Source: Mesostigma viride
Lineage: Eukaryota; Streptophyta; Mesostigmatophyceae; Mesostigmatales; Mesostigmataceae
Length of the DNA: 64,000 bases
Direction: 5' to 3'
Assembly: GCA_009746045.1 (NCBI GenBank)
Contig: RPFO01000050.1
Coordinates: 754,349 to 818,348, forward strand
Shown: positions 9,427 to 32,904 of the stretch, in pieces
How the letters are laid out: each line of letters begins with the position of its first letter
How positions within the stretch are numbered: the stretch's first letter is position 1
Notes under the pieces: model-generated
The model's database searches: none
The model's input: the letters and a program-made list of their open reading frames with translations, nothing else
What the model was told of the DNA's origin: nothing
Translations under genes and position numbers: made by a program

Positions 9427-9876
9427 CCAACGGCCGTTGGACCTGAAAAACTAAATGTGGAAAATATGTAATCCTTGTAGTTCTGATTGCAACGTTTTTG
9501 CGCATTCCTTGCAGATTCCACGTCGCCACACAAGATTCGCGTCTGTCAACCACCTGCAAGGTACTTGTTTTATTATTATGCGTTTTTTGGGCAGTCGCTC
9601 CCTCTTCTGATTTTCTTGATGCCAACGGCCGTTGGACTTGCAAAATCAGTTTCCATCATTGCTGTTGTGATTTACGTGATGCCAACGGCCGTTGGACTTG
9701 CAAAATCAGTTTCCATCATTGCTGTTGTGATTTACGTGATGCCAACGGCCGTTGGACCTCCAAAAAAAAGTTCTTGCCAATTTTTTTTGCGTTATTGATT
9801 ATACGCCAGTTTTATCAGCCGTTGCATTACGACGTTTTTATCTTAACTTCATTGCTGTAATGCCAACGGCCGTTGG
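9427..9876. repeat. Palindrome CCAACGGCCGTTGG, five copies, with a 60-bp tandem
   Basis: Perfect 14-bp palindromes occur at 9427, 9622, 9682, 9742 and 9863. The middle three lie in a 60-bp tandem repeat (units from about 9619, 9679 and 9739) whose second half reads CAGTTTCCATCATTGCTG. This is the first block of the palindrome family that fills the spacers up to 31 kb. The stretch 9303-9984 holds no other feature I can support. Confidence 0.9.
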
Positions 9877-9984
9877 CGTTGTAAAATAAAATTGTACTCC
9901 GGCTGATGAATTAATCCGCCCCTGAAGGTACTAGGTTTACTTACATTGGTTGTGCCAGTTGTGCTTCACGTGCAGTTTTTTTCA

Positions 9985-10239
9985 ATGGAGAAAGACAAGG
10001 ACGTTTCGGTGTCGAACCAGGAGAGAGAGGCAGTTGAACGGGGGGCCAAAAAACTGCCAGCCGAAGTTGTTAGAGCGATTGAGAAATTTTGGGATTCAAT
10101 TCCAGCCATGGTTGTGATGAAAAAAGATGATGTACAAGCTGAAGTGGACGAAATGCCGGCCTTAATTTCCGACGATGAAGGGGATGGTGTCAACTTTATT
10201 CAACCGGGAAACAAACGTAAACTGAAACGCAAAAAGTAG
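9985..10239 (+). CDS. Small acidic/basic hypothetical protein with C-terminal basic tail
   Basis: An 84-residue frame from the first in-frame ATG after a T-rich stretch. I do not recognise the protein. It starts with a charged segment (MEKDKDVSVSNQE), has a helical middle (EVVRAIEKFWDSI), an acidic stretch (ISDDEGDG) and ends in KRKLKRKK, which looks like a nuclear localisation signal. A GTACTAGG...CGTGCAG stretch just upstream (9928-9975) could be a short 5' intron. It precedes the MYND gene by about 180 bases. It could be an exon of a larger gene rather than a complete one. Confidence 0.5.
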   Translation: MEKDKDVSVSNQEREAVERGAKKLPAEVVRAIEKFWDSIPAMVVMKKDDVQAEVDEMPALISDDEGDGVNFIQPGNKRKLKRKK

Positions 10240-10419
10240 TGCGACCTAAGATGTTTTTAAATGTATATGCCAATTTAATGAAATCATTTTCTGAGGTTGT
10301 GAAGGACCTGACTGTTTTAAAAATGAATGATTACAATAAATTAGGCAAACACACTAATGGGAAAACGCGTTTTTTTGGCCGCGATGTAAATCTTTTTGTT
10401 CGTTTTTTCCCTGAAAAAG

Positions 10420-11179
10420 ATGGAGTCCGAGATCGTGAATGAAGTCTACGGAAGCGTCCTTCAAAACGTTTACAAACAAGTTCGCTTCCTGTCGCGTGTC
10501 ATATTCGAGGAAGTTCGTGTCGCGCAGGAGAAGACAGGCCGCCACTTGGCCGTTTTATTGGCGTTTGATTCGTTCAGCCAAATGGAGAGGGTTATGTACG
10601 CCCAGCTAGCTGATATGAACTTCTGTATTCAACAGGGTTTTTTCGTACCACAGATGGATCTAAGAGCGCCAATAGACCCAACGAGGGAGTTCCGCCTTTT
10701 GGTGTCGTTCATTACAAAGGGGCCAAAGATAGAGTTGGGGGAAGAGGAAGGGGCTCAGTTGGGTGCACCTACGGGCGCGCATTTTACCCGAATGTTACGT
10801 CTTCCCTGCGCGTGAGGGCTGACGCGTGTGTAGGGGCAGAAGTACCCCTCAACATGAACCTTTTCTTGCTCTCTGACCCGATCGTGAGGGATGGGGACCC
10901 ATGCGTGGTATGCGAAATTGCTCCAAGGAGGGGTGTGGGTGCCAAACAGGCCCTCAGAAGTGGTGTAGAGGATGTAGGGATGCCAGATATTGCAGTGAGG
11001 AGTGCCAGCGTGCTGACTGGAGTAGGCATAAGGATAGATGCGAACGTCTGAGGCAAGCAAGACAGGGGCTGGCAGGGGTGATAAGGGGGGTAAACAGGAC
11101 GACCATACTGGATGGAACTCAGGTCGACTTCTCTGAGGTCGACTTCTCCTTCACCTTCTACTACGGTTCTTCCTCATAG
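10420..11179 (+). CDS. MYND zinc-finger protein, frame-shifted (paralogue of 14904-15694)
   Basis: The N-terminal ~110 residues align with the gene at 14904: both have a helical start, then GRHLAVLLAFDSF / GRQFAVLVVYDSF, then a conserved EFRLLVSF/Y. The C-terminal part is a MYND finger: CSKEGC, CRGC, YCSEEC and CQRADWSRHKDRC supply the zinc ligands. MYND fingers usually mediate protein-protein contacts. The two parts lie in different frames. A first shift near 10735-10760 and a second near 10895-10930 are needed, both next to G-runs. The same arrangement in the paralogue suggests one two-domain protein of about 250 residues, broken either by mutation or by assembly indels. Confidence 0.68.
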
Positions 11180-11260
11180 AAAAACTGGAAATGTAGAGTA
11201 ATAATTTGCTTTTGAGGTTGGATAACTGGACGCATTTTGGTTTGAAATTTGTGTATTAGT

Positions 11261-11398
11261 CCTGATTTGTGTTGTAAAATGGTGTAATGGTGAATTCTCT
11301 TTTTACTTTGAAATTGGAATAAAATTGACCTGATTTGTGTTGTAAAATGGTGTAATAGTGGATTCTCCTTTCACTTTGAAATTGGAATAAAATTGACT
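11261..11398. repeat. 68-bp tandem duplication in the 3' flank of the MYND gene
   Basis: Two copies of an AT-rich unit beginning CCTGATTTGTGTTGTAAAAT, starting at 11261 and 11329. The rest of the spacer 11180-11580 has a near-palindrome (CCAACGGCCGTTAG) at about 11448 and nothing else I can support. Confidence 0.85.
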
Positions 11399-11580
11399 TT
11401 CGTTTTCTCTCATGCGACTGTAGTGGGTTAAACAACAATTAGTGACCCAACGGCCGTTAGGGATTGGAAACCTCGCCTAACGTTTGCATATTTTCTTTCC
11501 GACAAAACCTCATTTTTTTTAAGGATGGACGTCGATGTATGTTATGTGCAGAGGGGACAAGTTTGACGTCGGGGCCGATA

Positions 11581-12486
11581 ATGGAAGGGGATATCTCACT
11601 GCCGTGGGAAATTTGGACCGAAGTCGCAGCTTTTATGGAGGCGCCCGACGTAGCCCGCTTTGAAGCAGTTTGTAGAGGGGCTAGGGAAGCGGTGTCGGGG
11701 AGGTATGAACCCCAATTCAGCTTTAAGTTAATTTCTGGGTTCGTGGACGCATTCGGGGATGGTCCTCGTACATTGATAACTGAGTCTCTTTTCCGAGAAT
11801 TGTATGGCGGGCAAGTAAAGTGTGCAAGCGCTGATATCACCCCCTACACACTCGTCACAAGGGGAATGTATTTTAAGGTATATTGTGAAGAAGTTGAGGA
11901 GGTGTTAGGACGCCAGCCAGCACCAGAGGGACATGCACGAGCAAGGACGATGGGAGGGTTGTTCAGGTCCGAGCGTGCTGAGAGGAGACGTGTGTTGGAG
12001 AGGAATTGGAGGGGGTGGACAGCTCGCTTACGCCAATTGGGAAAGGAAATGGATGACTTGTACGATAATTATGAACTATGGGGGTTAAGGAGCATTTTCT
12101 GGTTCTGCGATACTCCTTATGACCCGGATGAGGACATTTTTTTTCCTCCGGGGAGGAGAGCGCGTAGGGAGGCAGAATGGGTGAAGCTTTTGGAGGGGCT
12201 GCCTCTGGAGGGGGGAGGAATGGCATGTGCAGTTCTGATCATGGGATTTGATGAGAACGCAGACATGAAGGCCTTATTAGAGAGGAGGTGTAGGGAGGAG
12301 GATATGGCAAGCGTTTTGGTGGAGTTAGCTATGCAGGTCCTCAGCGGAACAATCTTCACACCGGATTATCTCAAGTTTTTTGGGGGGAAGAAGGCACGCT
12401 TGCTGTATTTGGCCGAGAGTAGTATGTACAAGTGGAAAGGGGACATGATGTTGTGTTTGGATGAGGATTCTGAAGAGGTTGAATGA
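11581..12486 (+). CDS. F-box domain protein
   Basis: A 301-residue protein if the ATG at 11581 is used; an in-frame ATG at 11539 would add 14 residues. Residues ~5-45 (DISLPWEIWTEVAAFMEAPD, then VARFEAVCRGAREAV) match the F-box pattern of LP..I...I..FL...D...F..VCR. F-box proteins normally bridge SKP1 to a substrate in an SCF ubiquitin ligase. The remaining ~250 residues have no repeats (no LRR, WD40 or kelch) that I recognise; they include a charged helical part (RSERAERRRVLERNWRGW) and a C-terminal acidic end (CLDEDSEEVE). The frame is intact, without introns, and is followed by AATAAA-like sequence within 25 bases. Confidence 0.7.
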   Translation: MEGDISLPWEIWTEVAAFMEAPDVARFEAVCRGAREAVSGRYEPQFSFKLISGFVDAFGDGPRTLITESLFRELYGGQVKCASADITPYTLVTRGMYFKVYCEEVEEVLGRQPAPEGHARARTMGGLFRSERAERRRVLERNWRGWTARLRQLGKEMDDLYDNYELWGLRSIFWFCDTPYDPDEDIFFPPGRRARREAEWVKLLEGLPLEGGGMACAVLIMGFDENADMKALLERRCREEDMASVLVELAMQVLSGTIFTPDYLKFFGGKKARLLYLAESSMYKWKGDMMLCLDEDSEEVE

Positions 12487-13344
12487 TGAAACATAAATTT
12501 CATTAATAAATTTTGAATTCTAATATTGAATGAAATTCGCCAATTTTTGCTGATGGTAAGGCTGATGGCTAAAGCTGGATTTGATGATTTAATTATCTCT
12601 AATTCTGTCAACTGTCACATTTATATAAATTTGACATGAATTCGGCATTTTTTGGATTCCAACGGCCGTTGGACCTCAAAAAACATTTCTAGTGTGGTTA
12701 AAAAGTTGTGGGTATTTTGTTAAATGGAGTGACCAATGGTTGTGATTTATTTGATGCCAACGGCCGTTGGACCTTGACAAACATTGCTAGTGTAGCGCAA
12801 CAGTGGTGGATAATTTGTTTAATGGAGGGGCCGTCGCATCTGCTTGTTATTTTTTTAGGCTGAACAGTCACTGAAAATGTCGACATTATTGCTCCACACC
12901 ACGTAGGCCAGCCATCATGTTCCGCACACAAATCTGGCTCGACTCCGATCCCTGGCAGTGCTCTTCGCTTCGAACAGGTCCGGAACGAGTTTCTTGTGGG
13001 GTTGGAGCAATAAATAGTATTTTACCGGGAAGAGGCGTAATGCCAACGGGCGTTGGACCTGAACAATTGTGTGGTTAAATCAAGTGACAGAATATGAATG
13101 TGATTTATTTTACATTTAAAAACATATGTTATTTGGGAGGACAAGAAAGTTGGTTTTTGAGGTGTGTGTATCTTACGGTCGTTGATGGAGGAAACCTCTA
13201 ACAATCGATCGTGTTTTGTTTATGTGATATCTGTCAAGGCATCAAGAAGGAGAGGAGTCGCCCGTTGCTGAGAAGCTGAGGACAACTGTACTGGAAAGGT
13301 ATGTGGACAAGGACAACTGTGGGTGTGGGGGGAATAGCTTGGTG
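12487..13344. other. AT-rich spacer with palindromes
   Basis: No credible gene. It has TTAATAAATTT just after the F-box gene, perfect CCAACGGCCGTTGG at 12659 and 12757, and a one-base variant (CCAACGGGCGTTGG) near 13042. Each palindrome is followed by a GGACCT- or GGACCTG-type flank. Confidence 0.7.
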
Positions 13345-14873
13345 GACACCATTTCTGACTGGTCCGTAAGGCCTCTACCCGAAGGGGGTTGTGAGCCAAC
13401 GGCCGTTGGAATTGGAAAAACATTATCATGTGCTTTTTATTCGTTTGATAGGGTGGCAAGCAGCCAGGATGTGTCTTTCATGCAGCTTAGTGGTGGCTAT
13501 TTACCATTTTTCTCCTAGAAAGGCCTCCAAAAAAACTAGCTGAGCATAAAGATGGGCTTGACTGGTTCGTAAGGCATCCACCCTTCCCAGAGGGGGGTTG
13601 TGAGCCAACGGCCGTTGGAATTGGAAAAACATTATCATGTGCATTTCATTCGTTTCATTGGGTGGCAATAGGCAGGATGTGTCTTTCATGCAGCTTAGTG
13701 TGGCTATTACCATTTTTCTTCCAAGAAAGGCCTCCAAAAATCTAGCTGAGCATAAAGATGTGGTTGACTGGTTCGTAAGGCATCCACCCTTCCCAAGGGG
13801 GGTTGTGAGCCAACGGCCGTTGGACTTGAAAAACATTATCATGTGCATTTCATTCGTTTGATGGGTGGCAATCAGCCAGGATGTGTCTTTCATGCAGCTT
13901 AGTGGTGGCTATTACCATTTTTCTTCCAAGAAAGGCCTCCAAAAATCTAGCTGAGCATAAAGATGTGGTTGAATGGTTCGTAAGGCATCCACCCTTCCCA
14001 GGGGGGTTGTGAGCCAACGGCCGTTGGACTTGAAAAACATTATCATGTGCATTTCATTCCTTTGAGTGGGTTGGCAATCAGCAGGATGTATCTTTCATCA
14101 GCTTAGTGGTGGCTATTACCATTTTTCTTCCAAGAAAGGCCTCCAAAAATCTAGCTGAGCATAAAGATGTGGTTGAATGGTTCGTAAGGCATCCACCCTT
14201 CCCACAGGGGGTTGTGAGCCAACGGCCGTTGGACTTGAAAAACATTACCATGTGCATTTCATTCGTTTAATTGGGTGGCAATAAGGCAGGATGTGTCTTT
14301 TATGCAGCTTAGTGGTGGCTATTTACCATTTTTCTCCTAGAAAGGCCTCCAAAAATCTAGCTGAGCATAAAGATGGGCTTGACTGGTTCGTAAGGCATCC
14401 ACCCTTCCCACAGGGGGTTGTGAGCCAACGGCCGTTGGAATTGGAAAAACATTATCATGTGCATTTCATTCTTTTCATTTGGTGGCAGTAAGGCAGGATG
14501 TGTCTTTCATGCAGCTTAGTGATGGTTATTACCATTTTCCAAGAAAGGCCTCCAAAAATCTAGCTGAGCATAAAGATGTGGTTGGATGGTTCGTAAGGCA
14601 TCCACCCTTCCCACAGGGGGGTTGTGAGCCAACGGCCGTTAGACTTGAAAAACATTACCATGTGCATTTCATTCGTTTCATTTGGTGGCAGTAAGGCAGG
14701 ATGTGTCTTTTATGCAGCTTAGTGATGGTTATTACCATGTGCCTTCCAAGAAAGGCCTCCAAAAATCTAGCTGAGCATAAAGATGTGGTTGAATGGTTCG
14801 TAAGGCATCCACCCTTCCCACAGGGGGGTTGTGAGCCAACGGCCGTTAGACTTGAAAAACATTACTTACGTAT
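13345..14873. repeat. 205-bp satellite carrying one palindrome per unit (8 units)
   Basis: Eight direct repeats of 202-209 bp. Palindrome cores start near 13397, 13606, 13811, 14016, 14220, 14428, 14630 and 14838; the last two are the CCAACGGCCGTTAG variant. Each unit also shares a GGCCTCCAAAAATCTAGCTG stretch and a GTAAGGCATCCACCCTTCCC stretch. The array ends about 30 bases before the ATG at 14904, so it forms the immediate upstream region of that gene. Short open frames within it repeat with the unit and are not called. Confidence 0.93.
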
Positions 14874-14903
14874 TACGCACGTGCCAATTGGCGCAGGGGA
14901 GGG

Positions 14904-15694
14904 ATGGCGGAGACGGGCGAGCTGGAATCTTCGACCCGCGCTGCGATTGCCTGCGTGGCAGCAAACGTACTTAACCGGGCTCGCGAGATCCACGGATGGG
15001 TACGGCAGCACGAGAAGCGCCTGGGTCGCCAGTTTGCGGTTTTGGTCGTGTATGACTCGTTCGCCTCAGTAGGACGACAGATTAATCTCCAGTTGCTGGA
15101 CATGTACTTCGCCTTGGCTGGCGGATTCTACAAGCCCACGCCGGCGGATCGGGTTCCACTCAATCGAGACGTCGAGTTTCGACTTTTGGTGTCGTATGTC
15201 GGAAAGGTTGGGTGGGACCAGTGGGAGAAAGACCAGTGGGGGAAATTTCCAGACGCGAGTGAGGCGCAGCCGAGATTGACCGTATCGGCGAGAGTAGAGG
15301 GGGGGGGTTTGAAGGTTTCCATTTTACATTCGGGAATTCCGAGTCCGTGAAATTGACGTTTTCACGGATGATCGTTCTCCCGGGGGTGGGAGGGCCGATG
15401 CTGGGCTCGCTTCCAAAGTGTTGCTCGAATCAGGCGTGCTCTGTGATGGAGGGTGTCCACCGCAAGTGCGGGGGTTGTCGAGACGTCCGGTATTGTGCTG
15501 CCGAATGCCAGCGTGCGGACTGGGAGGAACACAAGAAGTGGTGTAACAAGTATCGTGAGGCGAGAAAGTCTCTCAGCACTATGCACGGCGACGTTACAGA
15601 CAGCTGGTCTGGTGTCAATTTGGCCGGACTTGTAATTCGGATGGGGGGTGAAGTGCATTTCAAGTTCAAAGGTGAAATGTTCAAGGTTTTTTGA
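14904..15694 (+). CDS. MYND zinc-finger protein with conserved N-terminal domain, frame-shifted
   Basis: Residues ~1-110 share with the gene at 10420 the GRQFAVLVVYDSF and EFRLLVSY motifs in the same order. The MYND finger follows at about 15420-15560: CCSNQAC, CGGC, YCAAEC and CQRADWEEHKKWC. The tail contains a short beta-rich segment (EVHFKFKGEMFKVF). N-terminal domain and finger lie in different frames; a single-base change in the run of nine G at about 15299-15307 would join them (GGFEGFHFTFG follows in the finger frame). Full length would be about 260 residues. It lies directly downstream of the 205-bp satellite. Confidence 0.72.
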
Positions 15695-15716
15695 GGGGAC
15701 TAAATCGTACCCAGGG

Positions 15717-15800
15717 CGATTTGTGAGGCGATGTCCGCGCTGGGGGAACAGTACCCCTGTTCGACTGCGTGAGGGGAATGGATTCTGCGACTGAAGAAAT
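15717..15800 (+). pseudogene. C-terminal remnant of a paralogue of the 16078 gene
   Basis: This stretch is clearly similar to the last ~85 bases of the gene at 16078-16695 (GTGAGGCGATGTCCGCGCTG against GTGAGGTGATGTCCGCGCTG, both ending in GCGACTGAAG). It contains an in-frame stop and lacks the rest of the gene. The downstream spacer is also shared, so a gene-plus-spacer unit was duplicated and this copy lost its coding part. Confidence 0.7.
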
Positions 15801-15804
15801 TTTG

Positions 15805-16077
15805 GGTGTGATTTTCTTGCGCCAACGGCCGTTGGAACTTGCAAATTAGGGTTTGATTTTCTTTGCAACCGGAAGTAGGGTGTGGTTTGCCACGTGGCAC
15901 CATGGATGTAATTAATAAATGCATAATAAAACATTTTTCGTGCGCCAACGGCCGTTGGAGACTGAAAACTAGTGTGTGATTTGTGCGCGTAATAAATCTT
16001 AAAATTCTTGTTGTTTTTTCAAGCCAACGGCCGTTGACGGTGAGAAATGTATATCAAACGGTGTCGGTGGGTTGCAG
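15805..16077. repeat. Spacer with three palindromes, duplicated at 16700-16996
   Basis: Palindromes are at 15823 and 15945, with a CCAACGGCCGTTGA variant at 16024. Shared blocks with 16700-16996 include CCACGTGGCAC followed by ATGGATGTAAT, AATAAATGCATAATAAAA, a TTCTTGTTGTTT segment and the 38-bp stretch directly before the ATG. The spacer was copied with the gene, keeping both the poly(A)-like AATAAA and the upstream elements. Confidence 0.85.
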
Positions 16078-16695
16078 ATGACGTTCTACAGGACGGAGGG
16101 GGGCGAGTGGATCAACTTGGAAGACAGGCTTCTGGGAGTGGTTAAGAGCGCGCTCAGGCTTCTGCCGGACATTAAGCTGGATTTTAAGCCCAAGGAGGGT
16201 GAAAGGTCTCTTTTGAAACCGGATGTCGCGAAGGCCGCGGCTCTTGTTTTCAATATCGAGGGTCGGGGACTCCCAAACCCGACCGTAGAGCCATTTGAGG
16301 AGGTGCTTGTGAGGTGTGGTGCTATAAGGCCCTATGATCCATCAATACCCAGCCCAATTTGTTTTCAGTCGATCGATGCTGATGGTAATGAAAGTTGGAT
16401 ACAGATGACGCGGCCATATGATAGGGGAGAAGGGTTTAAGGGTTTAGGGGAGGTGGGACGGTTCGAATGGGTCATCTTGAAGGACGGCAAGTACTTCAAG
16501 CATCACACTGACCTGATCATCGACCGGCTGTTCGTGTCTGCTGGAGATTGCATGTTCTGGTTGAGGGAATACGTGCATGAGTGGGGACCCGACGGTGTTG
16601 ACGAGTTTGAGAAAGCGGTTCGTGAGGTGATGTCCGCGCTGGGGCAGGAGTACAAGTTCGAGTGCGTGACTGACGCGAATCGATTATGCGACTGA
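16078..16695 (+). CDS. Hypothetical protein, 205 residues
   Basis: An intact frame from an ATG directly preceded by GGTTGCAG. I do not recognise a family. Visible parts are an N-terminal helix (LEDRLLGVVKSALRLLPDI), a middle stretch with alternating hydrophobic residues (FEWVILKDGKYFKH) and a C-terminal helical segment (VDEFEKAVREVMSALGQEY). It has no Cys/His motif, unlike its neighbours. A 38-base GTGAGA...TTGCAG stretch between the upstream palindrome variant and the ATG has intron-like ends and is almost identical to the one before the next gene. A decayed relative is at 15717-15800. Confidence 0.6.
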   Translation: MTFYRTEGGEWINLEDRLLGVVKSALRLLPDIKLDFKPKEGERSLLKPDVAKAAALVFNIEGRGLPNPTVEPFEEVLVRCGAIRPYDPSIPSPICFQSIDADGNESWIQMTRPYDRGEGFKGLGEVGRFEWVILKDGKYFKHHTDLIIDRLFVSAGDCMFWLREYVHEWGPDGVDEFEKAVREVMSALGQEYKFECVTDANRLCD

Positions 16696-16996
16696 AGTGT
16701 TGGGTGTGATTTTCTTTGCGCCAACGGCCGTTGGAACCTGCAAATTAGGGTTTGATTTTCTTTGCGCCAACGGCCGTTGGCAGCTGGAAAGTTGGGTGTG
16801 ATTCGCCACGTGGCACTATGGATGTAATCAATAAATGCATAATAAAAATTTTTTTCGTGCATTTTTCGTGCGCCAACGGCCGTTGGAGGCTGGAAAATGG
16901 TGTGATTTTCGTGCGAGTAATAAATCATTCTTGTTGTTTCAAGCCAACGGCCGTTGACGGTGAGAAATGTGTATCAAACGGTGTTGGTGGTCGCAG
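16696..16996. repeat. Spacer with four palindromes, copy of 15805-16077
   Basis: Perfect palindromes near 16722, 16768 and 16875 and the CCAACGGCCGTTGA variant at 16943. It repeats the upstream spacer of the previous gene, including the GTGAGAAATG...CGCAG segment that ends at the next start codon. Confidence 0.85.
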
Positions 16997-17778
16997 ATGG
17001 CGGTCAAATGCACGGTTGCGTGGTGCCAGGAAGCGAGAGCAGGAGGGGATGACTTGTGCGTGCGTCATGTCAGCGTGCGAACGGGAATGGCAGGGAGGGT
17101 GAAGGATTTGTTTGCAAAAAAGGGGGGTGTATCGCCCGGGATTGCCAGCTTCCATTCGGGACGGATTGCATGCCTTTTTGTGATGGACACGCCAAGTTGT
17201 CAGGGGAGATGCAAGAGGTGATCAAAGGAGGCTTGTTGTTTGTGCATGGCGAGTCCAGTGCTGGTGAAGGACCTCTTGTCCTGAGTTTTGAGGTGGACAG
17301 TGCTGGAAGTCTGGAAAGAATGGCGGTCAGGTCGCGGGAATGGATGTTGAATCACCCTGACTTTGACTCGTATGCCTACTGCCAAGGTTTCGGGGACGCC
17401 GTTTTTACATGGATGCTGTGCTCGGAGGATGACGTGCATGCGATTGTTTCGCATGACGACTTGGATATCGCAGGCGCCATGGGCGCAGACCTGTTGTTGT
17501 ATTTCATGATTGGATGGGGTTGCGGATTTTTGGAAGGTGATTGGTGGGTCCCGCACCTCGCAAGGCTTACTTTTGCGGTCGGCGAATTGCCTGTACCTGT
17601 TGAAGTCTCAAAAACTCGTGTGGAGATGGCTGCCGTTCTGGCATCGGGGGTTAAGCGCCAAGCCCGATTTGCCATGACCGTTGTTGCTGATGCTGAGGGG
17701 GAGGAAATTGAAAAGGTCGTGGAAAGGGTCGTCCTGGCCTCTGCTTTGGTGGAGAGAGCAAGGAATGCATGCGACTAG
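16997..17778 (+). CDS. Protein with two Cys/His zinc motifs, one frameshift
   Basis: Starts at the ATG directly after CGCAG. The first motif, in the start frame, is KCTVAWC...LCVRH (C-x4-C-x10-C-x2-H). The second, CIARDC...FCDGH (C-x4-C-x11-C-x2-H), is in another frame, as is the rest of the protein to 17778. The switch falls at the A6G6 run at about 17113-17127, so a one-base indel there would give a single ~260-residue protein. Downstream the frame is clean, with a beta-type segment (PLVLSFEVDSAG) and a C-terminal helix (IEKVVERVVLASALVERA). The zinc-motif spacing is shared with the genes at 18389 and 19188. No named family was recognised. Confidence 0.62.
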
Positions 17779-17849
17779 GTGTTTTTGGTCGCCAACGGCC
17801 GTTGGACTTGCAAAATGTCCTGTGAGCTGAGTCCGTTTCTTAACTTGCC

Positions 17850-18194
17850 ATGGACGTCGGTTGTGCAGGGGCAGGGTGTAGGATGGAGTGCGGAAAAGAA
17901 GGAAAGGAAGGGGGGGAGACTACAAAGGAAAACCTGATAGAGATTGTGGAGGCCGAACTGGAAGACCTGCCCGATCTGGTTCTCGAAGAGGACGGGCAAT
18001 TGCACGCTGAACGTCTTGATGGCGTGGGCATGATGATGTCGGAGGTTGATGGGTATGGTGGAATTGCTAAAGGTGTATTGCGTAAATTGAGGCGTGAGGA
18101 GGATGTGGGGACTCCGGCTCATGTTTTGGTCAGTTTTATGAACGACAATTGGGGTCGAATGCAACCCACTAAAGATGGGGAGGATGTTGACTAG
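17850..18194 (+). CDS. Small hypothetical protein, acidic, Cys-rich N-terminus
   Basis: A 114-residue frame from an ATG 42 bases after a palindrome (17794). The first residues (GCAGAGCRMECGKEG) have Cys at C-x4-C spacing, like the first half of the zinc motif in its neighbours but without the C-x2-H half. A later segment, AHVLVSFMNDNW, resembles AVLVVYDSF of the MYND paralogues, though weakly. An AATAAA lies within 45 bases of the stop. It may be a shortened member of the neighbouring family. Confidence 0.5.
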   Translation: MDVGCAGAGCRMECGKEGKEGGETTKENLIEIVEAELEDLPDLVLEEDGQLHAERLDGVGMMMSEVDGYGGIAKGVLRKLRREEDVGTPAHVLVSFMNDNWGRMQPTKDGEDVD

Positions 18195-18282
18195 AATGTG
18201 ATTTTAGGATGAATGTAAATTTATTTAATAAAGAAGAATCATTTGGAAAAAATCGCCTGATGGTGTCAAGTTTTGTGCGTCT

Positions 18283-18336
18283 AAGGCCAACGGCCGTTGG
18301 GATGTGTGGAATTTAACAGGGCCAACGGCCGTTGAC
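18283..18336. repeat. Two palindromes upstream of the 18389 gene
   Basis: A perfect CCAACGGCCGTTGG near 18285 and a CCAACGGCCGTTGA variant near 18322, about 37 bases apart and 50-100 bases before the ATG. The TTGA variant also occurs just upstream of the genes at 16078 and 16997, so it marks the start-proximal copy in three genes. Confidence 0.8.
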
Positions 18337-18388
18337 CCTGCTGAATGCGTGCGTTTGCGGGTGGTGTAAAAAATATCGATGTGCACAG

Positions 18389-18961
18389 ATGGACCCCATT
18401 CGATGCGAACATCCGGATTGTCAATGGGAAGGAATGCCGACGGACAGCGAGTGGTTCTGTCCCAAGCATTCTGACGTATGGGGGGCGTTGTTTGCCGAAA
18501 TCGAGAGCGGGCTGATGACGATTGACCGTCACATCGTGACGAAAAAGTGGAAGCCTTGGCCCAACAACATGGTTTTGGTCTTGTACTATGTTGACAAGAA
18601 GCCTCGATTCATGCTGCGTGATGCAGAGTGGGTGATAGAGGAGGTGGGACAGATGCGACCTGGAGAGGGGATAGGCGGAGAGGACAAGCCGCCAAGGCAT
18701 GTGTGGGCTTACATGGGAGACCATCCCGACTGTCCAACGGCCAAAGTGTGGCATGATATGGGAAGGGACCTGGCCACGGAGTCCGCGTATGAGTGCGCGC
18801 GACTCGTGACAGCGCTCTTGAAGGGGGAGGTGAAAGACCTGATGCGCAAGGGGGGGTTGGTAGAGCAGATTAGACAGCAGATTAGACGTGTGTGTGATTT
18901 TGATGAGGAGATTGATGAGAAGCCGGCAAAGAGGGGCAGGATGGACAGAATTGCTCAGTAA
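18389..18961 (+). CDS. Protein with Cys/His zinc motif, 190 residues
   Basis: Starts at the ATG directly preceded by GTGCACAG. Residues ~4-30 hold RCEHPDC and FCPKH (C-x4-C-x12-C-x2-H), the same pattern as at 16997 and 19188. This is followed by helix (LFAEIESGLMTI), a hydrophobic strand (NNMVLVLYYVD) and PRFMLRDAEWVIEEVGQ, then a helical region and a basic end (EKPAKRGRMDR). The frame is intact. It may be extended upstream in frame to include CVCGWCKKYRC, but that region has no ATG. The role is unknown; the zinc motif suggests protein or nucleic-acid binding. Confidence 0.62.
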   Translation: MDPIRCEHPDCQWEGMPTDSEWFCPKHSDVWGALFAEIESGLMTIDRHIVTKKWKPWPNNMVLVLYYVDKKPRFMLRDAEWVIEEVGQMRPGEGIGGEDKPPRHVWAYMGDHPDCPTAKVWHDMGRDLATESAYECARLVTALLKGEVKDLMRKGGLVEQIRQQIRRVCDFDEEIDEKPAKRGRMDRIAQ

Positions 18962-19187
18962 GAAAGAGAGGGAGAAAATATGATTTGATTAATCTGATGC
19001 GTGTAATTGAAACTAATTTATTTTGTCTCATAAAACTTCTTTGAACGGACCTTCTTTGAACCAACAATTATTGCACAAAAAGACTAGATTGAGAATTGTG
19101 TGAGAAAGACGCCAGAGGGGGTTCTGACGGTGCTCATTGCCCCTGTTATACAATGGCTGCTGTATGGGACTCATGGCAATTGCGCAG

Positions 19188-19968: not shown

Positions 19969-20206
19969 TAATGGGAATGGTCGCCCACTGTTCTTGTCAC
20001 AGAAATGCTTTTGTTAATGCTGGCGAACTTGGGACGGTCGTCCGTATTTCAACATTTCCTTGCCTTTAAAATTGATTGATGGGTAAATAATAATACTGAG
20101 CAAGCCTTCCATTTTATGTGTCTGTGGTCATACAATTTCGTTATTGTTTCAACCCTTGCAACGAGGTTTTTCTTGTCCCATGCATGTAAGTCTCAACCTT
20201 GGTGTC

Positions 20207-21689: not shown

Positions 21690-21694
21690 GACAA

Positions 21695-22150: not shown

Positions 22151-22183
22151 GTTACGCACAAGGATGTGATTTTCTTGCGCCAT

Positions 22184-25100: not shown

Positions 25101-27288
25101 TCCTTGTCCTTGTCCTTGTCCTTGTCCTTGTCCTTGTCCTTGTCCTTGTCCTTGTCCTTGTCCTTGTCCTTGTCCTTGTCCTTGTCCTTGTCCTTGTCCT
25201 TGTCCTTGTCCTTGTCCTTGTCCTTGTCCTTGTCCTTGTCCTTGTCCTTGTCCTTGTCCTTGTCCTTGTCCTTGTCCTTGTCCTTGTCCTTGTCCTTGTC
25301 CTTGTCCTTGTCCTTGTCCTTGTCCTTGTCCTTGTCCTTGTCCTTGTCCTTGTCCTTGTCCTTGTCCTTGTCCTTGTCCTTGTGTCCTTGTCCTTGTCCT
25401 TGTCCTTGTCCTTGTCCTTGTCCTTGTCCTTGTCCTTGTCCTTGTCCTTGTCCTTGTCCTTGTCCTTGTCCTTGTCCTTGTCCTTGTCCTTGTCCTTGTC
25501 CTTGTCCTTGTCCTTGTCCTTGTCCTTGTCCTTGTCCTTGTCCTTGTCCTTGTCCTTGTCCTTGTCCTTGTCCTTGTCCTTGTCCTTGTCCTTGTCCTTG
25601 TCCTTGTCCTTGTCCTTGTCCTTGTCCTTGTCCTTGTCCTTGTCCTTGTCCTTGTCCTTGTCCTTGTCCTTGTCCTTGTCCTTGTCCTTGTCCTTGTCCT
25701 TGTCCTTGTCCTTGTCCTTGTCCTTGTCCTTGTCCTTGTCCTTGTCCTTGTCCTTGTCCTTGTCCTTGTCCTTGTCCTTGTCCTTGTCCTTGTCCTTGTC
25801 CTTGTCCTTGTCCTTGTCCTTGTCCTTGTCCTTGTCCTTGTCCTTGTCCTTGTCCTTGTCCTTGTCCTTGTCCTTGTCCTTGTCCTTGTCCTTGTCCTTG
25901 TCCTTGTCCTTGTCCTTGTCCTTGTCCTTGTCCTTGTCCTTGTCCTTGTCCTTGTCCTTGTCCTTGTCCTTGTCCTTGTCCTTGTCCTTGTCCTTGTCCT
26001 TGTCCTTGTCCTTGTCCTTGTCCTTGTCCTTGTCCTTGTCCTTGTCCTTGTCCTTGTCCTTGTCCTTGTCCTTGTCCTTGTCCTTGTCCTTGTCCTTGTC
26101 CTTGTCCTTGTCCTTGTCCTTGTCCTTGTCCTGTCCTTGTGTTGTCCTTGTCCTTGTCCTTGTCCTTGTCCTTGTCCTTGTCCTTGTCCTTGTCCTTGTC
26201 CTTGTCCTTGTCCTTGTCCTTGTCCTTGTCCTTGTCCTTGTCCTTGTCCTTGTCCTTGTCCTTGTCCTTGTCCTTGTCCTTGTCCTTGTCCTTGTCCTTG
26301 TCCTTGTCCTTGTCCTTGTCCTTGTCCTTGTCCTTGTCCTTGTCCTTGTCCTTGTCCTCGTCCTTGTCCTTGTCCTTGTCCTTGTCCTTGTCCTCGTCCT
26401 GTCCTTGTCCTTGTCCTTGTCCTTGTCCTTGTCCTTGTCCTTGTCCTTGTCCTTGTCCTTGTCCTTGTCCTTGTCCTTGTCCTTGTCCTTGTCCTGTCCT
26501 TGTCCTCCTTGTCCTTGTCCTTGTCCTTGTCCTTGTCCTTGTCCTTGTCCTTGTCCTTGTCCTTGTCCTTGTCCTTGTCCTTGTCCTTGTCCTTGTCCTT
26601 GTCCTTGTCCTTGTCCTTGTCCTTGTCCTTGTCCTTGTCCTTGTCCTTGTCCTTGTCCTTGTCCTTGTCCTTGTCCTTGTCCTTGTCCTTGTCCTTGTCC
26701 TTGTCCTTGTCCTTGTCCTTGTCCTTGTCCTTGTCCTTGTCCTTGTCCTGTCCTGTCCTGTCCTTGTCCTTGTCCTTGTCCTTGTCCTTGTCCTTGTCCT
26801 TGTCCTTGTCCTTGTCCTTGTCCTTGTCCTTGTCCTTGTCCTTGTCCTTGTCCTTGTCCTTGTCCTTGTCCTTGTCCTTGTCCTTGTCCTTGTCCTTGTC
26901 CTTGTCCTTGTCCTTGTCCTTGTCCTTGTCCTTGTCCTTGTCCTTGTCCTTGTCCTTGTCCTTGTCCTTGTCCTTGTCCTTGTCCTTGTCCTTGTCCTTG
27001 TCCTTGTCCTTGTCCTTGTCCTTGTCCTTGTCCTTGTGCCAGCACCTTGTCCTTGTCCTTGTCCTTGTCCAGCACCTTGTCCTTGTCCTTGTCCTTGTCC
27101 TTGTCCTTGTCCTTGTGCCAGCACCTTGTCCTTGTCCTTGTCCTTGTCCTTGTCCTTGTCCTTGTCCTTGTCCTTGTCCTTGTCCTTGTCCTTGTCCTTG
27201 TCCTTGTCCTTGTCCTTGTCCTTGTCCTGTCCTTGTCCTTGTCCTTGTCCTTGTCCTTGTCCTTGTCCTTGTCCTTGTCCTTGTCCTT
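22184..27288. repeat. 5.1-kb hexanucleotide repeat (TTGTCC)n / (GGACAA)n
   Basis: More than 800 units of one hexamer, with only about a dozen interruptions (for example TTCCTTG at 22654, TTGTTGTCC at 23764, TTGTGTCC at 25382, and GTGCCAGCACC at 27037 and 27115). No phase has a stop, so frames of over 1500 residues exist on both strands (SL, VL, PC, DK, GQ and TR dipeptides); none is a gene. The array is flanked on both sides by pieces of the palindrome unit: TGATTTTCTTGCGCC at 22167 and 27297. It therefore grew inside a spacer of the palindrome family. Confidence 0.98.
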
Positions 27289-27296
27289 TTCTTGCT

Positions 27297-28012
27297 TGAT
27301 TTTCTTGCGCCTACGGCCGTTGCAATCTGGAAATTAGGGTGTTATTTTTTTTTTGCCCAACGGCCGTCGGAACCTGTAAATTAGGGTGTGATTTTCATGC
27401 GCCAACGGCCGTTGGAACCTGGAAATTAGGGTGTTATTTTTCTGTCGCCAACGGCCGTTGGAAACTGGAAATTAGGGTGTCATTTTCTTGCGCCAACGGC
27501 CGTTGGAACCTGTAAATTAGGGTGTGATTTTCATGCGCCAACGGCCGTTGGAACCTGTAAATTAGGGTGTGATTTTCATGCGCCAACGGCCGTTGGAACC
27601 TGGAAATTAGGGTGTTATTTTTCTGTCGCCAACGGCCGTTGGAACATGGAAATGAAGGTGTCATTTTTCTCGCGCCAACGGCCGTTGGAACCTGCATGGA
27701 AATTAGGGTGTGATTTTTCTTGCGCCAACGGCCGTTGGAACCTGGAAAATAGGATGTGATTTTTCTTGCGCCAACGGCCGTTGGAACCTGGAAATTAGGG
27801 TGTCATTTTTCTCGCGCCAACGGCCGTTGGAACCTGGAAATTAGGGTGTTATTTTTCTGTCGCCAACGGCCGTTGGAACCTGGAAATTAGGGTGTGATTT
27901 TCATGCGCCAACGGCCGTTGGAACCTGTAAATTAGGGTGTGATTTTCATGCGCCAACGGCCGTTGGAACCTGGAAATTAGGGTGTTATTTTTCCGGCGAC
28001 GGCCGTTGGAAC
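27297..28012. repeat. 45-bp tandem array of the palindrome unit (~16 copies)
   Basis: Each unit contains CCAACGGCCGTTGG, then AACCTGGAAATTAGGGTGT, then ATTTTCTTGCG or ATTTTTCTGTC. Most palindromes are perfect while the linker varies; the first two and the last copy have changes (CCTACGGCCGTTGC, CCAACGGCCGTCGG, GACGGCCGTTGG). The array leads straight into the gene at 28039. Confidence 0.95.
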
Positions 28013-28038
28013 ATAGTACTGACCTTCCGGCTATCTGT

Positions 28039-29256
28039 ATGTTTTTTGCATGTGATCAGGGGCGTCCGTCCAGGCCGAGAACGGACGAAGAGCGGAGGAG
28101 GTTGGTTTACAAGATTGAACATGGGGTGGCGGAAAGGGAGGTCACAACATTTTTTGAGGAATGGCGCCAACGAGCACCGGGCACCGACTTATGGTCGGTG
28201 ATTGTGAAGACCTTTGAGAGGAAGGGGCTGCTGACGACACGTGCTGGAAATGCGAAGCCCAGCATTTTGGACTCCTGGGAGCCAGCGCCGTCCTCTCAAG
28301 TGCACGACAAGAATCTAACTGACACCATACAGGCGGCGTTTCATCTGCGGCAGAAGATACGCCTAGTTCCAGACGATGTCGACATCGTGGGGGGGTCCGC
28401 GATTGCGACTCAAGTACGGGCCCCCACGGAGAACTTGTGCCAACTCCCGGAACTCATGCGGCATCGGACGGTGACGGTGCGGAATTGTAGGGGGCTCGCG
28501 CCGTGGTTCGTGGGGGCCGGCACAAGTCTGACAAAAGCAAAATGTGCCGTGCCGATCTTCCGGTTTGCGTGGCAGGTGCTGGCAGACCGTGATCCAGGTC
28601 TCTACAATTTATGGGTGCAGAGGAGTGAAAAGGTTCCTTACCACATTAAAATACTGACGGGGGACGACAGTGACCGTGCCGTGCAGAGGTTCGGATACTA
28701 TCGTTCGCCAACGGCCGAGGAAGCCATGTCCATTCTCCGGACGGACTCCCTGAAGGACATGGCGGCCGCTTGCTCAGACGAGTTGATCACCATGGAGTTG
28801 GATCCGTCCGAGTGGTCAAATGAATCTGAGCGTGAGGCAGTAGTTGACCTGACGAAATCCGCGCTGGGGAGCTTGAACATCTCGGACCATGCCGGCCTTA
28901 AGGGTAAATTTCGAGACCAGACGCCTTGCGTGTTTGTGCAGTTTGCCGTGCTGGACGGCAACCACTACACACAGATGTTGAAGTCCGTGATTTTCGAGGG
29001 CTCTGACGAGCAAGTGAGTACTGCGATAGCTGGCGAGATTGCGGGTAAACAAAAGGGCAAGTTCGTGGAGACAACCGACGAGGCGTTTGATTTGTGGAGG
29101 GGGTTGGTGAGGGACGCGGAGAAGTTCAAGTACACCAATCTGGACGTGCTCAAGGGCTGGGAGGTGGAGGGGGAAGCACTGATCCCGCCCATGAAGGACA
29201 TGCGGACGCAAAAGGTAAATATAACGGATCGGGTGTGGGAACGTTTTAGGCACTAG
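28039..29256 (+). CDS. Hypothetical protein, ~405 residues
   Basis: A long, clean frame with unbiased protein composition. The ATG at 28039 is the first in frame; the frame is open further upstream only through the palindrome. A CATGTGATCAG just after it could be a splice acceptor, in which case the start lies elsewhere. Recognisable stretches, but no known domain: a basic N-terminal region (PRTDEERRRLVYKIEHGVAE), a middle part (CRGLAPWFVGAGTSLTKAK) and a C-terminal charged part (DEAFDLWRGLVRDAEKFKY). No Cys/His motif, signal peptide or membrane segment. It is bracketed by palindrome arrays at 27297-28012 and 29270-29465. Confidence 0.65.
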   Translation: MFFACDQGRPSRPRTDEERRRLVYKIEHGVAEREVTTFFEEWRQRAPGTDLWSVIVKTFERKGLLTTRAGNAKPSILDSWEPAPSSQVHDKNLTDTIQAAFHLRQKIRLVPDDVDIVGGSAIATQVRAPTENLCQLPELMRHRTVTVRNCRGLAPWFVGAGTSLTKAKCAVPIFRFAWQVLADRDPGLYNLWVQRSEKVPYHIKILTGDDSDRAVQRFGYYRSPTAEEAMSILRTDSLKDMAAACSDELITMELDPSEWSNESEREAVVDLTKSALGSLNISDHAGLKGKFRDQTPCVFVQFAVLDGNHYTQMLKSVIFEGSDEQVSTAIAGEIAGKQKGKFVETTDEAFDLWRGLVRDAEKFKYTNLDVLKGWEVEGEALIPPMKDMRTQKVNITDRVWERFRH

Positions 29257-29269
29257 ATGTTATTTTTCT

Positions 29270-29465
29270 TGCGCCAACGGCCGTTGGAGCCTGGAAATTA
29301 GTGTGTGATTTTTCTTGCGCCAACGGCCGTTGGAACCTGGAAATTAGGGTGTGATTTTTCTTGCGCCAACGGCCGTTGGAACCTGGAAATTAGGGTGTGA
29401 TTTTTCTTGCGCCAACGGCCGTTGGAAACTGGAAATTAGGGTGTGATTTTTGTTCGGGAACGGCC
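29270..29465. repeat. Palindrome unit tandem, 4-5 copies
   Basis: Four perfect palindromes near 29275, 29321, 29367 and 29412 in the same 45-bp context as 27297-28012, and a decayed fifth (GGGAACGGCCGATC) at about 29455. The array separates the genes at 28039 and 29490. Confidence 0.93.
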
Positions 29466-29489
29466 GATCTTCCAAAGTGTAAGGACAAA

Positions 29490-30062
29490 ATGTCAGGTCG
29501 TGTGTTGTATGACCGTTTTTTGTCTCAAACACTGATTCACATTTCATGCATGCAGGGGAGAGAGGCGCATCGGAGGGTTGCCCTGATCGGAGGGGGGCTG
29601 AATGCAGAAGACGAGGCCGTTTCCAAAAAGTCGAGGGGGACGGCGCTGCTGGAAGTGCACAACTATTTCAAGACGCACATGGAGGAATCCTGGGATAAGC
29701 CGGAGGTGCCCCTTCAGGACCAGAAAGAAATATGGAATTTGATTCATGGGGTCTCAAGCAGCACTGAGAAGGCAAGGAAGGACGGGGAGGGGGAGGAGGG
29801 TGGTGAGGAGCGGGTTGGAGGGCGATTGAACGAGGGTGGTTTGTCCGAATCGGAGAAAACCCAAGTCTACGACTTCATCTCGGCTGTGAAGGATGAAACG
29901 GTCGCTCCGAACGACGACAGTAGATGTGGAATACCGATTGAGGACAAGCTGGCCAAGGAGCTTGCAGAGTTTCTGGACATCGTGGCAGCGGACAAGCTGG
30001 ACGGGGAGGGAAGGGTGATGAGGAAGGGGGGGGGATCAAACAGGAAGGGTGGAGGAGTCTAG
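29490..30062 (+). CDS. Hypothetical acidic protein, ~190 residues
   Basis: ATG at 29490 lies about 35 bases after the last palindrome remnant. The frame is intact. It has a helical region (LLEVHNYFKTHMEESWDKPE), an acidic low-complexity linker (GEGEEGGEE), a second helical region (EDKLAKELAEFLDIVAADK) and a Gly/Lys/Arg-rich end. No known family recognised. A CATGCATGCAG at 29551 could be a splice acceptor, leaving the exact start open. Only 26 bases separate its stop from the next ATG, with no palindrome between them, so both may belong to one transcription unit or be exons of one gene. Confidence 0.5.
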   Translation: MSGRVLYDRFLSQTLIHISCMQGREAHRRVALIGGGLNAEDEAVSKKSRGTALLEVHNYFKTHMEESWDKPEVPLQDQKEIWNLIHGVSSSTEKARKDGEGEEGGEERVGGRLNEGGLSESEKTQVYDFISAVKDETVAPNDDSRCGIPIEDKLAKELAEFLDIVAADKLDGEGRVMRKGGGSNRKGGGV

Positions 30063-30088
30063 CCCGCTTTCGATTCTGGCCGTCTATC

Positions 30089-32904
30089 ATGGCAACCGTG
30101 AAGGCCAAACACGTTCCTCCTCAGTGCTTGTATGACCTGACATACATGGCCAAGATCTTCTGCGAGGTGATGGTCCAGCTTTTCATGATCTACAACCGCG
30201 ATTTGGGGAAATACCCCGAACCACGCGAACTCGGCTGGTTGCCGATGCAGCCTTCGGAATCCGACAGCGCCCTTCAGAGGGTGGCCGATACGGTCGCTGT
30301 AGCTGCCAAGAGAATAAGGGCGGTTATCAGGCCAACGGGGAGGGACGATTCCACCTTCCCACTTGCACTGCTGGAGAGGACGGATTTTGGACGACCCACA
30401 AGGAGGAAACGAAATGGTGGGTCCTGATTGCGCCCGAACCCCCAACCGAACAGGCTGTGGTGCCCCAACCCGTACAGCCTGTGGCGGGGGCTGTGGTGGT
30501 GACGGGGGCTGTGCCGGAGGAAGGCCAAGCCGAACATGCCGAGGCAGAGGACGTCCAGTCGGGTCGCCAAAAAAAGGTGGGGGAGAAGCGGGAACCCCCG
30601 CGGAAGTTTGGGTCGGAGGAGATGGCATCCGAAATCGAGCAGCAGGGCCCGTGGATTTCTAAGAGAGTTTACACGTCTGACGGGGAAGAGACCTGTGAGT
30701 TCATGATGAAGACTTTCGCGTGGGAGAAAAGCGATGGGCCGACACGGTTGGCTCAAGTGGTACTTAATGCAATGGAGGGGTTCGAATTTGTTGCGAAGAG
30801 GAAGGGGTTGAACCAGCCAGATATCAAGAATGGGGTAGTGCTGCTGAATTTGGAACATCACGCCAAGCTGTGGAATGATGAGGAATTGTTGAAGGGTCGA
30901 ACGGGTTCGTGGGTGGAGAAAAGGGACTGGAAGGCGGCGAAGGATTGTGGAGATTTCAATGGTGTGAAGGACGACTGGTCGTCGTACCTAAGCGATTTCA
31001 CGGGATTCTTCAACCCACCCGTGATCTTCATTGGGTCAAAGGAGCAGGTGGATGGGTTTAAGGTCCTTCTGAAGGTACTTGGGAAGCGGCCACAGGGGGA
31101 GGATATTTCCAATCCCAACGGCCGTTCGGGCAAGGAAATTGCGGGTGCAGCCCAGAAGCGTCAGCTGGAGACGGCAGGCGCTGGCACCAAAAAGAAACGC
31201 CGGAAGCGCGCCGCCTCGGAGACCCCCGCGGCCGAAGACGTCTCAATGGGGACGCCCTACCCTCATGATGGCGGCGTTCGGCCGGAGGGGGATGATGAGG
31301 ATGTCGGGTCACAGGGGGGTGATGATGGGGAAGAGGTTGGTGATGATGGTGACGGCGGTGATGAGGGGGGCGGGAATGAGGGTGGTGATAAGGGGGCGGG
31401 TCGAAGGACGGAGAGGGGGGGGTTCGAAGGGCGGAGAGGGGGGCGGGTCGAAGGGCGGAGAGGGGGGGGTCGAACGACGGAGAGGGGGGCGGGTCGAAGG
31501 GCGGAGAGGGGGGCGGGTCGAAGGGCGGAGAGGGGGCGGGTCGAAGGGCGGAGAGGGGAGGGGTCGAAGGACGGAGAGGGGGGCGGAGAGAAGGGCGGAG
31601 AGGGGGCGGAGAGGGGGCGGGTCGAAGGGCGGAGAGGGGGGCGGAGAGAAGGGTGGAGAGGGGGGCGGGTCAAAGGGCGGAGAGGGGGGCGGGTCCAAGG
31701 GCGGAGAGGGGGGCGGGTCGAAGGGTGGAGAGGGGGGCGGGTCAAAGGGCGGAGAGGGGGGCGGGTCGAAGGGCGGAGAGGGGGCGGGTCGACCGGCGCA
31801 TCGGGGGAAGGGGGGAAGGAGGGGGGGGAGGGGAGGGAGGCTCGAAGGGGAATTCGGGGGCGTCGGGGGGGGGATGCTGGGGCGTGCCGTCGACTACTGC
31901 AAAAAGCTCCTTTCGCCTGGCGGGCACGTTCGATCAAGAGCAACGGCTAGTCATCTGTCAAAGGGTAAGTTAATCTGAGTGAATATGGTCGGTTAAATTA
32001 TGATGTTTGCATATTCCCAAGTTTGATTTGCGAATGTAATGATAACTAATTGCGCCGCTCGTCATTGCTTGTCCCACCCACAGGTGACGAGTCTGAAGAG
32101 GAGCCGCCAAAGGATGTCATGCATGCCGGCCCACCCAAAGGGTTTGTGGAAGATTCGGAAGAATCGGAAGAATCGGAACCGGAGGATCCAGCGCCACAAA
32201 GACGTGTCACAGTTACCGCAACCCAGCCCAAGCCACTAGACAAGAAAGTGCCACCACCAAGTTGGCAGCCGTGGATGGAGAATCTGGAAGGTGTGTGGGG
32301 GGGGAAACGGGTCGTGCCCCGCTCGCCTGTTGGATGTCCGGTTTCGGTATTGTGCAAGCACGGCGGTGAATTTTGCCAGTATCGGAAGAACCAACTCCAG
32401 CGCCTTGATACGTTGTGGAAGCCCACGTGGGCTGCTGATTCGGTGGCTAAACTCAATGCAGACCCAATGAAGCTGGCACACATGCCTGATTTCCACGTCG
32501 ACACGTTCCTGGTGCATGGAGTCGTTCGAAAGGTGGATAAAACGGGCGTGTGGTGCGTTAAATTTTGGGCAGAAGGGTGTGACGAAAAGGGAATCTGGAT
32601 TAATGGGGAGAAGGGGACGATGCCCAACATAATTTTCAAGGTACAAGAAGACGAGATGCGGAACTGTTTCAAGCCACCTGAGGGAACGTATTTGGAGTGG
32701 TGGATGGACAAGGGGTACCTGGCGACCAGATCTTCCCCAGCGACCAGATCTTCCCCACGACTCCAAGAGAAGGGGGGAGACCAAGCCGCAGGGCAGGGCA
32801 AACGAAAACCTCAAGGGAAGGCTGGCGCAGATGTGCGGGAGGGGGGTGTAAAGAAGCCCAGCGGACGGGCACCTGTAAAGAAACGCCTGTTAGTAGGTAG
32901 TTAG
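30089..32904 (+). CDS. Large charged protein with Gly/Ser/Lys/Glu repeats, two exons (frame-shifted)
   Basis: The start frame runs MATVKAKHVPPQCLYDLTYM to 30427. A second frame continues naturally (DGFWTTHKEETKWWVLIAPE) to a basic region (KKKRRKRAAS), an acidic Gly/Asp-rich part and the GGGSKGGE-type repeats. Inside the repeats the reading switches to a third frame (GRAVDYCKKLL, SRATASHLSKG), which joins cleanly through a GTAAGT...CCACAG intron (31965-32083) to exon 2: GDESEEEPPKDV, then CVKFWAEGCDEKGIWINGEK and a basic tail, stop at 32904. The splice restores codon phase, which supports a real gene. The upstream shifts may be indels in G-runs or missed introns. No known domain; a nuclear protein is likely from its composition. 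Confidence 0.55.
31385..31800 (+). repeat. Coding 23-24-bp G-rich minisatellite (GGGSKGGE repeats)
   Basis: About 15 units built on GGGCGGGTCGAAGGGCGGAG and a G-run of 4-8. Length changes in the G-run make adjacent units fall in different frames (GRRAERGAGRR, GGGSKGGEGG and so on). Long frames therefore exist in several phases on both strands. It sits in the middle of the gene at 30089-32904 and probably explains its frame switch. Confidence 0.85.
31965..32083 (+). other. Intron, 119 bases, GTAAGT-CAG
   Basis: Donor AAGG/GTAAGT at 31965 and acceptor CCCACCCACAG/GTGACG at 32083. Joining 31964 to 32084 keeps the reading frame (phase 1). The interior is AT-richer than the exons. Confidence 0.75.

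Follow-up and report, generated by a model that had tools for sequence, protein, structure and literature searches.

The 64,000-nucleotide stretch of Mesostigma viride contig RPFO01000050.1 analysed here (hereafter the window) contains a 14-bp palindrome, CCAACGGCCGTTGG, that recurs in the spacers of a gene cluster. It forms the centre of a larger dyad, TTT-N7-CCAACGGCCGTTGG-N7-AAA, in which the T and A tracts stand at mirrored offsets. The pattern is real, strongly non-random, and longer and more structured than first noted in the original prediction, which had been made from the letters of the window. We tentatively read the dyad as a promoter-proximal site of a dimeric protein, through which the genes of a compact cluster, probably derived from a large DNA virus, are predicted to be activated together.

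Number and distribution of palindrome copies

Thirty-seven perfect copies of CCAACGGCCGTTGG were found at 9427-29425, with 0.00 expected from 100 shuffles. Allowing up to two mismatches raised the count to 48 (0.31 expected from shuffles), with the last copy at 31115-31128. The original prediction was right about the number of perfect copies, whereas the near copies number 11 and not about ten. No further copy at up to two mismatches was found in the 64-kb window outside 9427-31128, and a weight-matrix scan of both strands of the window, using a matrix from 17 representative intergenic copies, returned the identical 48 copies and no others; both searches agree with the predicted absence of the palindrome from the rest of the window. 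Among the 14-bp self-complementary words in the window, CCAACGGCCGTTGG also ranked first, with 37 occurrences compared with 18 for the runner-up, an ATTAATTAAT tract.

The copies had been described as lying between genes, not in them, and 47 of the 48 were indeed outside the drawn gene loci; the sole exception, at 31115, is inside a frame of the last locus (g13). The tandem and satellite forms were present as 60-bp, 204/205-bp and 45/46-bp arrays. The copies span the range of the single cluster proposed at 9.4-31.1 kb, but the stretch splits into two blocks, at 9.3-20.0 kb and 22.16-31 kb, with different DNA, a plastid-type rpoB fragment included, lying between them.

In wider searches, the 14-mer matched 108 stretches in IMG/VR, and among the 80 of these 108 that were listed each held a single site, as chance predicts. 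The one-sided composite GCCAACGGCCGTTGGANNTGNAAA had 0 matches in prokaryote genomes, a plasmid comparison of 9400-20000 gave no match, Rfam families and tRNAs numbered 0 each, and a literature text search for the 14-mer found no paper.

Structure of the dyad

The AAA tract stood at +21 to +23 in 42 of the 48 copies and TTT at the mirrored positions −10 to −8 in 29, with both present in 27. The AAA and TTT profiles peaked at identical mirrored offsets, over spacer backgrounds of 3.8% and 4.9%, respectively. At the level of single bases, A was conserved at +21, +22 and +23 in 43, 46 and 46 of 48 copies, and conservation beyond the palindrome also included G at −1 (44/48) and A at +14 (40/48). 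The complete 34-mer dyad occurred 24 times, with 0 expected, and the centres of its T and A tracts lie 31 bp apart, or about three turns. The 14-bp palindrome proposed as the conserved unit is thus real, but the constrained element is longer.

Because the copies are related by descent, AAA and TTT were tested on copies grouped by their outer flanks (single-linkage, with the tested places excluded). The 47 copies grouped in this way formed seven loose groups, in which AAA was the majority state in five (p 1.5e-6) and TTT in three (p 0.004). On leave-one-out flank scores, the forward direction, which is that of all genes, outscored the reverse in all 17 representative copies. A one-sided reading of the flanks was rejected on the mirrored offsets, which show a dyad with a stronger right arm. 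Since the palindrome is invariant through its centre and the mirrored tracts are three turns apart, this is the pattern expected of a homodimer target, and a putative homodimeric DNA-binding protein would read the dyad.

The original prediction had instead seen two MYB sites placed head to head. In that explanation, R2R3 or MYB3R factors of the alga would read the two MYB cores and place genes, whether native or captured, under cell-cycle control. The half-site CCAACGG does contain the AACGG core, 44 of the 48 copies retain AACGGCCGTT, and the copies are placed promoter-proximally. With the 48 copies masked, however, the spacers (5,135 bp) held seven occurrences of AACGG, two of CAACGG and none of CCAACGG. 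Densities in the masked spacers were 1.36/kb for AACGG and 0.39/kb for CAACGG, compared with 1.55/kb and 0.65/kb, respectively, at 33-64 kb; lone half-sites were not enriched, and we therefore argue for the whole dyad as the unit. The plant MSA element has the consensus YCYAACGGYYA. It has in common with each half of the palindrome the AACGG core, but the outer bases differ, with the G and G that flank the half-site departing from the consensus at both ends, and cores that abut without a spacer and fixed mirrored T and A tracts are not known from it. What stands of the earlier proposal is the AACGG core in each half; the pair of independent sites is not supported. A host MYB site is possible but not favoured, and we consider it unlikely, although the available text of the Mesostigma genome paper reports three R2R3-MYBs in the alga (PMC6947507).

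Position of the dyad relative to genes

The cluster was drawn as thirteen loci, numbered g1 to g13, all on the forward strand, and nine of the thirteen frames have copies upstream. In seven of these nine spacers, the last copy ended 29-64 bp before the ATG (54, 40, 39, 44, 53, 64 and 29 bp). When the copy blocks of seven spacers were moved at random (sliding null), p values of 0.015 for the count at 20-70 bp and 0.03 for the spread were obtained. The same null gave p 0.71 for the stop-side distance, so that spacing from the preceding stop is loose. As all loci face one way, divergent and convergent pairs are absent and only block heads and tails can be compared. Five copies precede g1 and 16 precede g10, the block heads, where only satellites or other non-cluster DNA lie upstream. 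The DNA from the end of g1, g8, g11, g12 or g13 to the next frame or to the window end holds no copy, and the next listed copy after g9 is 7.3 kb away. The proposed DNA-level symmetric site, kept in the spacers, is borne out, and its orientation and position would fit a cis-regulatory element serving a single gene set.

The same positions bear on a transcript 3'-end signal, by which an RNA hairpin or 3'-processing mark would follow each gene as in mimivirus or marseilleviruses. According to the available text of PMC5413956, intergenic palindromes end transcripts in noumeavirus, and the hairpin-rule palindromes of mimivirus and Marseilleviridae are likewise concentrated between genes; those palindromes have long stems and diverse sequences and come after stops, whereas here a single sequence with a weak hairpin comes before starts. 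Two observations fit a 3'-end mark and count against a promoter site: a copy lies 13-25 bp after the stop in three of seven spacers, and AATAAA lies 20-43 bp upstream of a copy in 7 of 15 cases. In so compact a cluster, one gene's poly(A) signal would adjoin the next promoter, and the placement of AATAAA therefore does not decide. The core hairpin, on the other hand, reaches just −5.7 kcal/mol, two single-copy contexts folded as their shuffles did (z +0.53 each), and strong folding was confined to tandem pairs (z −5.8 and −4.3), as palindrome pairs must fold. The bases of the would-be loop, GGCC, vary as little as those of the stem. Moreover, g1, g8, g9 and g11-g13 have no copy directly after them, the first genes have copies before them, and the stop-side distance is unconstrained. 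We regard a 3'-end signal as rather unlikely.

A mobile hairpin or recombination site, also raised in the original prediction, is disfavoured: the copies all point the same way, neither target duplications nor open ends were seen, and single hairpins are weak. Another green alga, Lobosphaera incisa, likewise has a repeated intergenic palindrome, LIMP, in its mitochondria; in the available text, LIMP palindromes are organellar, looped, with stems of variable length and in both orientations, whereas the palindrome here is fixed, loopless and in one orientation (PMC4524435). Organellar palindromes were ruled out by the surrounding nuclear-type genes and retrotransposons.

Sequence variation among arrays

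Deviating cells in the 46-bp arrays numbered 3 of 266 in the palindrome versus 84 of 608 in the linker; units of 45 and 46 bp were counted without a common register, which inflates the linker figure. The palindrome is not outstanding within the 205-bp satellite, where 41 of 195 14-column windows were kept equally well. Between arrays, the flanks diverge and the dyad positions are kept. The earlier statement that the palindrome persists amid variable linkers therefore holds between arrays and within the 46-bp arrays, but fails within the 205-bp satellite.

The spacers at 15716-16080 and 16615-16999 are duplicates with 81% identity. At 22162-22182, a truncated unit, GGATGTGATTTTCTTGCGCCA (read from the sequence), retains the left half of the 46-bp repeat and breaks off inside the palindrome, after CCA, where a 5.1-kb TCCTTG array (22183-27288) starts. 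With a cut unit at its start and complete units again from 27297, this array likely grew by expansion of the hexamer inside the palindrome array.

Such features would suit a selfish or passive satellite, in which spacers share ancestry and the palindrome was spread without function by tandem duplication and segmental copying. The tandem arrays, the duplicated spacer, the unit cut by the expanded TCCTTG array and the equally well kept windows of the 205-bp satellite are all in keeping with it. It accords less well with the dyad positions kept between arrays while the flanks diverge, or with the constraint on placement and orientation, and we find this explanation unlikely.

Both duplicated spacers contain a further palindrome, GCCACGTGGC (G-box core), at 15889 and 16805. 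After the stop of g4, 15690-15790 holds what is left of a g5-like gene's 3' end, with an in-frame stop, a sign of unequal duplication and loss. A loose inverted repeat at 12880-13015, around TTGCTCCA / TGGAGCAA and ending at AATAAATAG, lies between two palindrome copies.

Gene content of the cluster

Five copies (9427, 9622, 9682, 9742 and 9863, spanning 9427-9876), two of which form a 60-bp tandem, stand ahead of the first gene, g1, an 84-aa frame with a basic C-terminus and no Pfam family (9985-10239). It is followed by g2 (10420-11179), a MYND-finger locus broken into three frames. A single near copy (11447-11460) precedes g3 (11581-12486), a 301-aa frame with a weak F-box that falls short of the Pfam cut-off (E 0.0021). 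Three copies (12659, 12757 and 13043, spanning 12659-13056) are followed by the 204/205-bp satellite (13384-14864), whose eight copies at 13396-14849 stand ahead of g4 (14904-15694), a MYND-finger paralogue of g2 with a broken frame and pieces 41% and 48% identical. Of the duplicated spacers, one carries three copies (15822-16037) ahead of g5, a 205-aa frame with no Pfam family (16078-16695), and the other four copies (16721-16957) ahead of g6 (16997-17778), whose frame is broken. One perfect copy (17792-17805) occupies the 71-bp spacer between g6 and g7, a 114-aa frame (17850-18194), and two copies (18287-18335) precede g8, a 190-aa frame (18389-18961). The first block ends with g9 (19161-19968), again a broken frame. 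In the second block, a 46-bp tandem array of 16 copies (27297-28012) precedes g10, a 405-aa frame (28039-29256), and a 46-bp tandem array of four copies (29258-29466) precedes g11, a 190-aa frame (29490-30062). Locus g12 (30089-30427) and the frames of g13 (30430-31950 and 32050-32904) follow, and g11-g13 may be one gene.

Nine loci with uninterrupted frames lie within about 10 kb (9985-19968), and frame changes break g2, g4, g6 and g9, which reflects either decay or assembly error. The dense, intron-poor loci contrast with the mean host gene described in the available text of PMC6947507, which is 5,941 bp long and has 4.81 exons, the introns measuring 1,142 bp.

A Pfam scan of 16 cluster pieces detected two MYND fingers (7e-9 and 2e-8) and the sub-threshold F-box, while 13 of the 16 pieces had no Pfam family at E 1. 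No homologue was found among 5.8 billion proteins for g3 or g10, the only cluster proteins so searched. A Polinton-like or virophage origin was rejected, with no hallmark family among the Pfam-scanned cluster pieces. Single-sequence structure predictions for g8 and g5 had a pLDDT of 38 and were not used. Near the starts of g6, g8 and g9 (16997-19968), C-x4-C...C-x2-H finger-like motifs were seen by eye, in g9 partly as C-x2-C, and these three loci are possibly one diverged family.

Neighbouring sequences

Directly before the cluster, 180-9301 comprises an 8-kb satellite of 30-bp units, then a 29-bp array and a TCCTTCCC array. The plastid-type rpoB fragment between the two palindrome blocks lies at 20205-20531 on the reverse strand, and a further piece, in a different frame, extends up to 20730. 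It was closest to PDB enzymes of cyanobacterial type, as we take the organisms of these matches to be, and is a plastid insertion in nuclear DNA. Downstream of the cluster, a non-long-terminal-repeat (non-LTR) retrotransposon at 44798-48315 on the reverse strand contains a reverse transcriptase (RVT_1, 1.6e-23), and its next frame is endonuclease-like by eye. The reverse-transcriptase frame (44798-46495, reverse strand) showed identities of 98, 92 and 90% over 58, 57 and 47% of its length, respectively, to jgi/Mesvir1 proteins in EukProt, a label that presumably denotes Mesostigma viride; judged by these matches, the host is very likely this alga. Further partial non-LTR retrotransposon copies lie near 33.5, 42-43, 51-52 and 62-63 kb, and a 36-bp CCTGCCCCCCATGACAAGGAA satellite with strong strand asymmetry occupies 55342-57215.

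Discussion

If the dyad is a dimer site, the start-proximal copy, often imperfect but usually with the A tract on its ATG side kept, would be the promoter element, and the perfect tandem copies upstream would add binding sites in an enhancer-like manner. The cluster frames would be transcribed, and the cluster itself would be viral in origin, endogenised and now decaying.

The closest described counterpart is the palindromic motif of medusavirus, GCCATRTGAVKTCATRTGGYSRSG; according to the available text of its report, 40 of 42 immediate-early genes have it 40-70 bp ahead of their start (PMC8557863). Judged from that text, the two have in common an intergenic palindrome with GCCA...TGG flanks, a position tens of bp before start codons, an A-rich start side, and genes mostly of unknown function. 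The medusavirus motif differs in its letters, is described there without tandem arrays, and is linked to expression, whereas the cluster here is known from sequence (PMC8557863). In IMG/VR, GCCATRTGAVKTCATRTGGYSRSG was found in 17 scattered stretches.

An enhancer or replication element would be a further way to read the arrays. In baculovirus homologous regions, tandem palindromes in the spacers of a DNA virus are bound by a dimeric activator, IE1, and also act as origins; by analogy, the palindromes here would be bound by a dimeric viral activator. The tandem palindrome arrays in the spacers would fit, as would the perfect copies, which are mainly away from starts. Homologous regions, however, are longer imperfect palindromes at few loci per genome and are not known to be fixed one before each gene, whereas here placement near the ATG is constrained, which makes such an element quite unlikely.

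Several further observations weigh against a promoter-proximal dimer site in a cluster of viral origin. Four of the 13 frames (g2, g9, g12 and g13) have no upstream copy, and the gaps to the ATG of g1 and g3, 108 and 120 bp, are outlying, an in-frame ATG of g3 being 42 bp nearer. The start-distance test involves small numbers and gene starts of our own choice, and the palindrome copies share ancestry, so that their counts are not independent. The G at −1 and the A at +14 break the mirror symmetry, and as the left arm is also weaker, the element is a pseudo-dyad. Imperfection was commoner among the start-proximal copies (6 of 9) than among the rest (5 of 39; p 0.002), which would be odd for a promoter driven by the perfect dyad. 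The start-proximal mismatches fall mostly in the last two bases (TTGA, TTAG), and these copies kept the A tract in 7 of 9 and the T tract in 4 of 9 cases. Two readings follow: the start-proximal copy may act asymmetrically, with the perfect copies upstream of it playing an auxiliary part, or the perfect dyad may be under selection somewhere other than at the start. With regard to origin, the full dyad had 0 matches in IMG/VR, five protein scans of IMG/VR confirmed no viral relative, and no capsid, polymerase or packaging ATPase family of Pfam was found among the 16 pieces of this window's cluster.

The cluster is foreign-looking, and can be called viral only by analogy of organisation; a viral origin is plausible but unproven, and fast-evolving native genes are possible. 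A more specific scenario, which we put forward as a doubtful possibility, is a fossil viral regulon: a nuclear-replicating lineage of large DNA viruses of a basal streptophyte alga would have relied on the 34-bp dyad to switch on its early genes, and one complete block of such co-regulated genes, together with its copies of the switch, would be preserved in Mesostigma. A literature search combining Mesostigma viride with giant virus, endogenous and Nucleocytoviricota found no paper on viruses of the earliest-branching streptophyte algae, and among the papers listed by another search Mesostigma was mentioned in a single one, a general review. If the dimer-site reading of a virus-derived cluster is right, regulatory syntax could reveal endogenised viral gene blocks whose proteins have no detectable relatives left, and the cluster would provide an entry to the viruses of these algae.

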